DNA of 64,000 nt, taken from NCBI GenBank assembly GCA_000701725.1, contig JNJQ01000002.1:124001-188000 (forward strand), read 5' to 3'. Source of the stretch: Erysipelotrichaceae bacterium NK3D112. GTDB taxonomy: Bacteria; Bacillota_I; Bacilli_A; Erysipelotrichales; Erysipelotrichaceae. The notes beneath the pieces are model-generated. The model worked only from the letters and a program-made list of their open reading frames with translations. It had not been told where the DNA came from and searched no databases. The translations under genes were made by a program, and so were the position numbers. Below, piece after piece: positions 36,949-41,372 of this stretch (the first letter of the stretch is position 1; the number at the start of each line of letters is the position of its first letter).

Positions 36949-37164
36949 TTACTCGGCAGAAGCGGTCTTGGCAGCTTTCTTTGCCTGACCCTTGAGAGTC
37001 TTCAGCGCACGCGCAGAGATCTTAACGGTCTGGGGCTTGCCATCGACGAGCATATGAACCTTCTGCAGATTGACGTTCCACTTGCGGCGGGTCGCACGAA
37101 GTGAGTGGGAACGTCTGTTTCCTGACATTGCTTTCTTACCGGATACGGCACAAACTCTGGACAT
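36949..37164 (-). CDS. rpmB: Ribosomal protein bL28
   Basis: This large-subunit protein has 71 residues, starting [20 protein letters not shown] and containing [13 protein letters not shown]. An Ala/Lys-rich C-terminal extension makes it slightly longer than the usual 62. Only one of the four zinc cysteines of C+ forms is present. The start at 37164 follows GGAGGTT at good distance. In Bacillus rpmB also lies next to the thiN locus on the opposite strand. Confidence 0.95.
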
Positions 37165-37195
37165 ACCATAACCTCCTTCACACAATTGCTAAAAA

Positions 37196-37333: not shown

Positions 37334-38605
37334 ATGGCTAACGACAAGCAGATTTTTGCGGCGGTTGAAGTGGCCGATCATGAAGTCAGACTGATTATCG
37401 GCGAATTTTTCAACACCCGCTTCAATATTATCAAAGTGGAACGCGTTCCCGTAAACGGCATGTCATATGACAAGGTGACAGATCCTGATGAAGTTACGAA
37501 GGCAGTCCGCACGGCCGCTGAAAATGCGAAAAAGATGATCAGCGCCGAAGTGCAGAGAGTAATACTGGCAATTCCTTCATTCCGGGCGAAGCGCTATTCC
37601 TTCAAATCGACCGTGGATGTCGAGGGAATCGACGGGGTTGTCACGATTCAGGATGTCAGAAATGCGATCAAGAAAGCCGAGTCCATGGATATCGGCAGGG
37701 CATATGCCCTGGTGCAGACCGTATGCGTCAAATACACAGTCAACGGAATTTCAACCAGAAGGATTCCGCTTGGCGAAAGATGTTCCCAGCTGACAGTCGA
37801 CATCGATCTGTTATGCGCGGACAGACAGCTGGCATATGATCTGGTGTCATGCGTAGAAAATGCGGGACTCTCGGTAATGGATATCTTCCTGGATGTCTAC
37901 GGAGTCGGCAAGGAAAGCGCCCTGTTCGAACAGGCCATCGATCACCAGGTTGTGATTCTGAAAATGGAAAGGGAAGCGACCACCCTCGGTCTTCTCAGAA
38001 AAGGAAGACTGACCTCAGCCGCGATGATGCCGGTGGGACTTGGCACCATTGCCTCGGCGGTGACCGATCAGTACGGCATCCGCACCGATATGGCGGTGGA
38101 GCTGCTCAAATACAGCGCAAGACTCAACGAAGAGAAGTGCTCGCAGAACCCGGTGCACATCTGGGCCGTGGACGGGGAGACACGCACAATCAACGAACAG
38201 CAGCTGGTTGACTGCGTGCGTCCGGGCATACAGACATGGCTCGAAGCCATCCAGAAAACGTGTGTTCCAATCTTGCAAGCAGGCAAAACAACTGTTATGA
38301 TTACTGGAGAAGGCGGAGAAACTCAGGGATTGGACTCTCTACTTGAGTCAGTACTGGGAGTTCCGGTCAGATGTTATATACCGGAAACGCTGGGAGGCCG
38401 CAATGCCGGTCTGACAGCCTGCCTTGGATTATTTTACGCATATCTGGACAAACTGCCGATCACAGGACAATCTGAAGACAGTCTGGACATGGAAGCGTTT
38501 ATTAAGGCAGTATCCTATCGTGATAAAAAATCATCCGATGGGAACCGTGAAGACACTCTGACCAACAAGCTCAGAGGTTTGTTCACAGAAGGCAAAAGAA
38601 ACTAA
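37334..38605 (+). CDS. ftsA: FtsA-like cell division protein with degenerate ATP-binding motifs
   Basis: FtsA tethers FtsZ filaments to the membrane. The 423-residue protein follows the FtsA layout and lies directly upstream of ftsZ. Similar segments include RFNIIKVERVPVNGM, VQRVILAIPS, VSCVENAGLSVMDIFLDVYG and a C-terminal amphipathic helix (NKLRGLFTEGKRN). The actin-fold phosphate loops are eroded. Phosphate-1, usually DIGTS, is here EVADH (about residues 12-16). Phosphate-2, usually DIGGGST, is KMEREAT (210-216). The adenosine motif region ITGEGGETQGLDSL is partly kept. ATP binding is therefore doubtful, while membrane tethering may remain. The gene is outside the usual mra/mur division cluster. 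Confidence 0.85.
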   Translation: MANDKQIFAAVEVADHEVRLIIGEFFNTRFNIIKVERVPVNGMSYDKVTDPDEVTKAVRTAAENAKKMISAEVQRVILAIPSFRAKRYSFKSTVDVEGIDGVVTIQDVRNAIKKAESMDIGRAYALVQTVCVKYTVNGISTRRIPLGERCSQLTVDIDLLCADRQLAYDLVSCVENAGLSVMDIFLDVYGVGKESALFEQAIDHQVVILKMEREATTLGLLRKGRLTSAAMMPVGLGTIASAVTDQYGIRTDMAVELLKYSARLNEEKCSQNPVHIWAVDGETRTINEQQLVDCVRPGIQTWLEAIQKTCVPILQAGKTTVMITGEGGETQGLDSLLESVLGVPVRCYIPETLGGRNAGLTACLGLFYAYLDKLPITGQSEDSLDMEAFIKAVSYRDKKSSDGNREDTLTNKLRGLFTEGKRN

Positions 38606-38629
38606 ATCAAGTGGGAGAGGATGAAGTTT

Positions 38630-39721
38630 ATGGCAGATTTAACTTACAACCAGGTCGCTAAGATCAAGGTATTCGGTGTCGGCGGCGCCGGAAGCAATGC
38701 GGTCAATCGTATGGTACAGGAAGGTGTGCAGGGTGTCGAATTCTATGTTGCTAACACAGATCTTCAGGCCCTTGATATTTCCCCTGTGGCAAACAAGATT
38801 CAGCTCGGACGTGAAGGTCTGGGTGCCGGCGGAAATCCTGACAACGGACGCAAGGCTGCAGTAGAGAGCGAAGATGAAATCCGCAAGTCCATGGAAGGCG
38901 CGGACATGATCTTCCTGACAGCAGGTCTTGGCGGCGGAACAGGTACAGGCGCATCGCCTCTGTTCGCAAAGATCGCGAAGGAACTCGGCTGCCTCACAGT
39001 CGGTATCGTTACAAAGCCGTTCTCTTTTGAAGGCAAGAGAAGAATGGTTCAGGCTGAACAGGGTCTTGAGCAGCTCAAAGAATATGTTGACTCCCTGATC
39101 ATTATTTCCAACAATAAGGTTCTCGAAGTCATCGGACATATTCCTTTCGAAGATGCATTCAAGGAAGCTGACAACATTCTGCGTCAGGGCGTTCAGACAA
39201 TCACTGACCTGATCGCTGTTCCGGCAATGATCAACCTCGACTTCGCGGACATCAAGTCTGTTATGGAAGGCCAGGGTTCCGCTCTGTTCGGAATCGGTAT
39301 GGCTGATGGCGAAGACAAGGCCAGAGAAGCTGCTGAGCGTGCAATCCAGTCACCGCTGCTCGAAGCTCAGATCAAGGGTGCAAAGAGCGCTATCATCAAC
39401 GTCACCGGCGGCGCAAGCATGTCTGCTTATGACGCAAGTGAAGCTGTTGATTATATCCGTGACGCTGCAGGCAATGATATCGATATCATCTTCGGTGTCG
39501 CAATCAACGACAAGATCGGCGATTCCATCATCGTTTCCGTTATCGCAACCGGATTCGATCTGCCCAAGCCTACCATGATCGAGACAGACGGACCTGCTGA
39601 AACAAAGAGTCCCGTCAGCTCCAGACCGGTAGCAGGCGTTGTTCAGGATGCGGATGATGATCTGTCCTTCGCAGCTGATGATGACGACAATGTCATTCCG
39701 GGCTTCTTCAGAAGAGGCTGA
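38630..39721 (+). CDS. ftsZ: Cell division GTPase FtsZ
   Basis: FtsZ is the tubulin homologue that forms the division ring. The 363-residue protein has FGVGGAGSNAVNRM, the tubulin signature GGGTGTGASP, the T7-loop region NLDFADIKSVM and a C-terminal tail ending DDNVIPGFFRRG, which matches the IPxFxR peptide bound by FtsA and other partners. The ATG at 38630 was preferred because GGGAGAGG ends nine bases upstream; the ATG at 38621 directly abuts that site. Codon choice suggests high expression. It starts 24 bases after ftsA and ends at a strong terminator. Confidence 0.97.
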   Translation: MADLTYNQVAKIKVFGVGGAGSNAVNRMVQEGVQGVEFYVANTDLQALDISPVANKIQLGREGLGAGGNPDNGRKAAVESEDEIRKSMEGADMIFLTAGLGGGTGTGASPLFAKIAKELGCLTVGIVTKPFSFEGKRRMVQAEQGLEQLKEYVDSLIIISNNKVLEVIGHIPFEDAFKEADNILRQGVQTITDLIAVPAMINLDFADIKSVMEGQGSALFGIGMADGEDKAREAAERAIQSPLLEAQIKGAKSAIINVTGGASMSAYDASEAVDYIRDAAGNDIDIIFGVAINDKIGDSIIVSVIATGFDLPKPTMIETDGPAETKSPVSSRPVAGVVQDADDDLSFAADDDDNVIPGFFRRG

Positions 39722-40454: not shown

Positions 40455-40475
40455 TGCATGAATACGGAGGGAATT

Positions 40476-41372
40476 ATGAAAAATATTACTAAAGTACTCG
40501 CATGCGGAATCCTTGCACTGGGCCTGGCAGCCTGCGGTGCAAAACAGGAGTCAGAGTCTGAAACTCCTGCTGAGACAGCCGGATGCAATCCGAACGGATA
40601 CCAGATCATACCGCTTGAAGCGGCTCAGCTGCCGCTGTCACTGCCGGATCTGGAAGCGGCCGTGATCAACGGCAACTATGCGCTCGAATCCGGACTCAAC
40701 GAAAAATATCCGGCGATCGCGATTGAAGAGTTTGATGCGGAAACAAGTGTGCGCAGAACCAATTATATTGCTGTAAAAGAGGGTACTGAGAATTCAGACA
40801 AGATCAGAGCTCTGATTGCGGCAGTGACTTCTGACGAAGTGAAGAACTACATTGACAGCACATACAAAGGAGCAGTCATTCCTTCCTTCATCGATGAAGA
40901 GGGCAATGCCCTGGCAGCTGCTGAAATCAAAGATGCAAGCGGTGAAGACACAATGATCACGGTCGGCGCAACCGCTGTGCCGCATGCGCAGATTCTCAAC
41001 GAAGTGGTAAAAGGACTTCTTGAGAAACACGGCTGGCAGCTCGATGTGGTCGAATATACCGATTATGTTCAGCCGAACACTGCTCTTGAAGCAGGGGATC
41101 TTGACGCCAACTATTTCCAGACACTCGGCTATCTGCACAATGAAAACGAGCAGAGGGGTCTGCATCTGAAGGCTGCCGTCGGCGTTCATATCGAACCGAT
41201 GGGAATCTATTCCGAAAAGGTCACTTCACTGTCAGATCTGAAACCCGGCGCAAGCATCGGTGTGCCCAACGATACCGACAACTACGGACGCGCGGTTGAA
41301 CTGCTCAACACGCTCGGTCTGCTTGAGAACGCTCCGCTTGATCCTGAAGCGAACCGTGAGATCAACGGTTAA
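40476..41372 (+). CDS. metQ: MetQ/NlpA methionine-binding lipoprotein, circularly permuted
   Basis: This is the substrate-binding lipoprotein of a methionine ABC importer. The 298-residue precursor has a signal peptide with lipobox LAAC (Cys20). Normal MetQ runs from VGATxxPHAEIL through DYVQPN, DANYFQ and HIEPMGLYS to EAAQLP, AVINGNYA and GAVIPAF. Here the order is reversed. Residues 38-138 carry the usual C-terminal half (PLEAAQLPLSL, AVINGNYALESG, YKGAVIPSF). After a 21-residue linker, residues 160-298 carry the usual N-terminal half (VGATAVPHAQIL, DYVQPNTAL, DANYFQTLGYL, HIEPMGIYSEK, PNDTDNYGRA). All family motifs occur once, so this is a circular permutation, not a duplication. GGAGGG precedes the start. 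metN and metI follow. Confidence 0.9.
   Translation: MKNITKVLACGILALGLAACGAKQESESETPAETAGCNPNGYQIIPLEAAQLPLSLPDLEAAVINGNYALESGLNEKYPAIAIEEFDAETSVRRTNYIAVKEGTENSDKIRALIAAVTSDEVKNYIDSTYKGAVIPSFIDEEGNALAAAEIKDASGEDTMITVGATAVPHAQILNEVVKGLLEKHGWQLDVVEYTDYVQPNTALEAGDLDANYFQTLGYLHNENEQRGLHLKAAVGVHIEPMGIYSEKVTSLSDLKPGASIGVPNDTDNYGRAVELLNTLGLLENAPLDPEANREING

Follow-up and report, generated by a model that had tools for sequence, protein, structure and literature searches.

Replaced nucleotide-binding loops in the cell division protein FtsA of Erysipelotrichaceae

FtsA is an actin-like division protein that binds ATP in other bacteria. Why it needs the nucleotide is unsettled, as ATP is hydrolysed by some FtsA proteins and only bound by others. 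The 64,000-nucleotide stretch of DNA analysed here (the window) comes from Erysipelotrichaceae bacterium NK3D112, a member of a family of gut bacteria, and contains an ftsA gene whose product departs from the usual signature at each nucleotide-binding loop (Table 1). Does such a protein still run on ATP, and how widely is the change shared? Our literature search, which covered titles and abstract openings, returned no report of an ATP-less FtsA or of the FtsA of Erysipelotrichaceae.

Table 1. Features of the ftsA-ftsZ locus, in window coordinates.
Feature	Position	Strand	Description
rpmB (ribosomal protein L28)	36949..37185	-	Upstream neighbour of ftsAZ
ftsA	37334..38605	+	423 aa; actin-fold protein anchoring FtsZ to the membrane, nucleotide loops non-canonical
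P1 hairpin	37367..37390	+	Residues 12-19, EVADHEVR; canonical D-[IL]-G-S/T
P2 hairpin	37958..37984	+	Residues 209-217, LKMEREATT; canonical [ILV]-D-[IMV]-G
Adenosine loop	38303..38320	+	Residues 324-329, TGEGGE; Glu in place of the second Gly
C-terminal amphipathic helix, putative membrane anchor	38558..38587	+	Residues 409-418, LTNKLRGLFT; low-confidence model
ftsZ, normal	38621..39721	+	TIGR00065 401.7 bits, over cut-off
FtsZ C-terminal end	39695..39718	+	IPGFFRRG; family form mostly IPxFF

The original prediction that this protein is homologous to FtsA is borne out by its sequence, by the fold predicted for it and by the order of the genes. It matches the TIGR01174 ftsA model over residues 9–355 (5e-33, 114.7 bits). 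This is below the equivalog cut-off of 175.85, which is strict for the lineage because many FtsA proteins of the class also miss it; the cut-off is exceeded in 25 of 198 genomes. The SHS2_FTSA domain (PF02491) scores 31.2, exceeding its cut-off of 25.4, and the FtsA model PF14450 reaches 25.6, short of 31.8. A sequence search of the PDB ranks FtsA chains first. Using an alignment of 56 rows (the window protein and named relatives), Alphafold2 predicted an FtsA fold with a pLDDT of 87.9 and a pTM of 0.84. The best structural matches of the model are Staphylococcus aureus FtsA (3wt0, Z 41.0, and the ATP-bound 3wqu, Z 40.4), followed by other FtsA structures and then by PilM (Z 28). With the FtsA structures of S. 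aureus (3wqt, 3wqu, 3wt0), Thermotoga maritima (1e4g, 4a2a) and Escherichia coli (7q6d), the fold is shared over residues 4–378, as are the SHS2 (1C) domain, the pattern of the putative C-terminal helix and the ftsA-ftsZ order. The helix is predicted in a region where the pLDDT is mostly below 50 (residues 397–423), and its pattern is conserved across Erysipelotrichaceae. PilM shares the actin-like fold (Z 25–28 to the model). However, PilM has no link to ftsZ, and the window protein matches it only weakly in sequence, below the cut-offs (PF11104, 14.8 versus 27; TIGR01175, 23.8 versus 133). The window protein is FtsA by descent and very probably also by function.

What it lacks are the ATP-binding P1, P2 and adenosine motifs. 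The letters EVADH (E12–H16) at P1 and KMEREAT (K210–T216) at P2 are as originally read, and in the Alphafold2 model the P1 and P2 turns, between strands 5–13/17–26 and 205–211/216–222, fall on the changed residues. No GGG is present anywhere in the protein, and its one D-x-G, at residue 119, lies in the SHS2 domain and not at P1 or P2. We looked at both loops for a shift of the alignment that would restore either motif and found none. In the alignment, E12 and K210 line up with E14 and D210 of E. coli FtsA. Since E. coli FtsA has Glu at the first P1 position, this residue on its own does not indicate a loss. Likewise, the missing GGG alone is not decisive, because S. aureus FtsA carries DIGEDVT in P2 and its structures were solved with ATP and AMPPNP. 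The telling changes are those at residues 14, 15, 210, 212 and 326. Unlike the FtsA proteins of S. aureus, T. maritima and E. coli, the window protein has replaced the P1 Gly and Ser/Thr, the P2 Asp and first Gly, and the second adenosine Gly.

The replacement reaches far beyond this strain. Across the genus (the window FtsA and 33 relatives), D15, E17, R19, K210, E212 and R213 are present in 34 of 34 sequences, and Gly at residue 14 in none of the 33 that have a letter there. Among 80 named loci, including those of Lactimicrobium massiliense, Anaerorhabdus furcosa, Holdemania and Bulleidia extructa, G14 occurs in 0 of the 78 with a letter at this position and G212 in 2 of 80. We also compared 143 distinct Erysipelotrichaceae FtsA sequences with 24 of the sister family (f2). 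The P1 residues D12, G14 and S/T15 are found in 2 of 141, 2 of 141 and 7 of 142 family sequences respectively, whereas all 24 sister-family proteins have each of them. In P2, D210 is kept in 27 of 143 (Lys in 80) against 23 of 24, and G212 in 8 of 143 (Glu in 113) against 24 of 24. Residue 326 of the adenosine loop is Glu in 114 of 142 family members and Gly throughout the sister family; G325 is retained in 139 of 142 and 24 of 24 respectively, and G327 in 132 of 142 family proteins. The new P1 residues are themselves strongly conserved (E17, 139 of 142; R19, 136 of 143), with Lys at the position of R19 in 20 of 24 sister-family sequences. P2 varies across the family while P1 stays fixed. In these alignments the loop replacement extends to almost all Erysipelotrichaceae. 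The altered FtsA, originally proposed for this cell, is nearly family-wide.

An exception within the family indicates when the motifs disappeared. Genus g36, represented by two genomes (L176/L252 and L253), has near-canonical FtsA motifs: P1 contains DIGS, P2 contains N-[LI]-G and the adenosine loop contains GGGG. An IQ-TREE mixture-model tree of 67 rows, calculated with the motif columns removed and with the second g36 sequence included, places g36 as the sister group of the remaining 42 family rows (99/92) within a family supported at 100/99. An earlier FastTree tree did not resolve the deepest branches of the family, where supports were 0.00 and 0.26, and placed the family rows L191 and L185 before L176. 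Since the near-canonical genus is the sister group of the remaining family FtsA, the simplest explanation, and the one to which the tree points, is a single loss of the motifs early in the family, after the split from g36. One apparent loss of the site, together with a sister genus that keeps it, offers a natural test of the purpose of the ATP switch in FtsA.

Similar changes occur elsewhere in the class, to which our sampling was confined apart from the E. coli sequence. Among the other FtsA of the class, 50 of 51 retain the P2 Asp/Asn and 37 of 50 have G212. G14 of P1 is present in 19 of 51 and absent in 32, most of which have an intact P2 Gly. Lys or Arg at residue 210 was seen in 0 of 51 and Glu at 212 in 0 of 50. 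In family f10, whose position beside Erysipelotrichaceae in the tree is moderately supported (92/66), the P1 Gly is lost, as is the P2 Gly in 2 of 3 sequences. Eleven rows with TGA-coded frames (L255–L265), which we infer from this coding to be Mollicute-like, have also lost both the P1 and P2 glycines. However, they retain the P2 Asp/Asn, carry other replacement residues (mostly a P2 loop that includes Trp, for example VDWDYDSIK) and occupy a separate position in the tree; L266 groups with them (95/89) yet keeps both glycines. For these reasons the glycine loss in Mollicute-like FtsA looks like a separate event.

What do the replaced loops mean for function? Judging by the residues involved, the canonical Mg-ATP cycle is probably absent from FtsA of the window type. 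The protein would still link FtsZ to the membrane, through its actin fold with the SHS2 domain, its C-terminal helix and the IPxFF tail of FtsZ, and the rebuilt site would no longer hold Mg-ATP in the canonical manner. Without an ATP cycle, FtsA would therefore act as a constitutive tether, its polymerisation and membrane binding being set by FtsZ and by partners such as SepF instead of by nucleotide state. The proposal of an FtsZ tether that works without an ATP cycle thus survives in so far as the canonical cycle has probably gone, a narrower claim than a complete absence of ATP binding: the adenosine loop is partly kept.

Experiments on other FtsA proteins bear on this reading. According to one study (PMC10213515), neither D210A nor E14R of E. 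coli FtsA complements, E14R binds phospholipid without ATP, and E14R keeps 61% of the ATPase activity in vitro. A single P1 change thus does not abolish ATPase activity. For Deinococcus radiodurans FtsA, another study (PMC4281207) describes polymerisation with ATP and no ATPase activity. A more far-reaching version of the tether reading is that FtsA in almost all Erysipelotrichaceae is a nucleotide-free actin, in which built-in charged side chains stand in for the nucleotide and fix the membrane-binding, polymer-competent state permanently, and that Mollicutes became independent of ATP in a separate event. We put this forward tentatively, as possible though not likely.

One way in which a nucleotide could be dispensed with, compatible with the tether explanation, is an ion-pair lock between P1 and P2 that takes the place of the ligand and holds the domains closed as in the ATP-bound form. 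Opposite charges do sit on the facing hairpins throughout the genus (E12, D15 and E17 versus K210 and R213). Moreover, the model superimposes slightly better on ATP-bound T. maritima FtsA (1e4g; Z 37.3, rmsd 3.0) than on the apo form (1e4f; Z 35.4, rmsd 3.6), although this difference could stem from a bias of the predictor towards closed forms. The family alignment argues in the other direction. Residue 210 is Asp in 27 of 143 proteins while D15 is mostly retained, and the best covariation between the loops has a z of 3.1 and ranks 443 of 67,907. No strong covariation was found among the P1, P2 and adenosine-loop columns, which leaves the idea without support from that quarter, and we consider it rather doubtful.

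Alternatively, ATP or another nucleotide could still be bound in an altered pose, with the retained adenosine loop as the main site of contact and the new side chains handling the phosphates. The conservation of G325 and G327 favours this, as does R19, which takes the position of a Lys in most of the sister family. So do the tolerance of a P2 loop without GGG in S. aureus FtsA and the residual ATPase activity of E. coli E14R (PMC10213515). However, Glu stands in place of the second adenosine Gly in the great majority of the family, most family proteins have exchanged the P2 Asp for Lys and the P2 Gly for Glu, and a variable P2 beside a fixed P1 would be odd for a shared ligand site. We regard such binding as improbable.

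That the gene is simply decaying, as a pseudogene or under relaxed selection, has practically nothing to recommend it beyond the low scores against FtsA models, given a dN/dS of 0.047–0.091 against five relatives (with dS near or above 1 in four of them), no internal stop among the family matches listed, replacement residues conserved family-wide and ftsZ adjoining ftsA in 84 of 86 loci. The loops had been called eroded. They have indeed changed, but the charged residues common to all 34 genus sequences and the low dN/dS (0.05–0.09) show that they have not decayed; a new, strongly conserved signature has replaced them. A canonical FtsA encoded elsewhere and doing the ATP-dependent work is equally hard to credit: although the genome is a draft of 95 contigs, a search of it returned a single FtsA match, and TIGR01174 was over its cut-off in 0 of 60 family genomes, some of them single-contig, as opposed to 10 of 12 sister-family genomes. 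The partial TIGR01174 matches in the family cover model positions ~163–346, in ORFs of mostly about 330 aa, and we read them as MreB-type proteins.

Loss of SepF was considered as a reason for the change in FtsA and rejected, as SepF was found in 52 of 55 family genomes and in 12 of 12 of the sister family. FtsZ was found in 53 of the 55. For two genomes, G079 and G096, the FtsA, SepF and FtsZ searches all came back empty, which we read as missing data and not as absence. The genome of the window has two SepF genes (G000:C16:15532-15744 and G000:C4:49477-49692), and G068 carries a closely spaced SepF gene pair.

The surroundings of the gene have changed as well. ftsZ follows ftsA after 15 bases, and 148 bases separate ftsA from rpmB, its upstream neighbour on the opposite strand. 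As predicted, ftsAZ stands beside rpmB, outside the mur-division cluster. rpmB is located just upstream of ftsAZ in 77 of the 86 family loci and in 0 of 24 sister-family loci. A sister-family genome keeps the canonical cluster, murG-murB-divIB-ftsA-ftsZ-proC-spoIIGA-sigE-sigG, with sepF further on (names read from the ORFs, sepF by search). Of another 69 family loci, whose flanks are short, 20 showed rpmB, and most of the others have less than 300 bases of upstream sequence. The link is not universal, since in 16 of these 69, with ~1.4–1.5 kb of upstream sequence, no rpmB was detected. The tail of FtsZ also differs between the families. Whereas it mostly reads PxF[LI]xNR in the sister family, in Erysipelotrichaceae it mostly stops shortly past IPxFF. 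As the NR-type end is missing there, FtsA and FtsZ may have altered their interface in concert.

Downstream of ftsAZ, the window encodes a MetQ/NlpA lipoprotein (40458-41372, plus strand) that appears circularly permuted. Its residues 167–290 match positions 1–123 of PF03180, and residues ~44–143 correspond to the C-terminal half in relatives of normal order. The permuted order is also seen in L036, L063, L064, L066 and L080, and most other relatives have the normal one.
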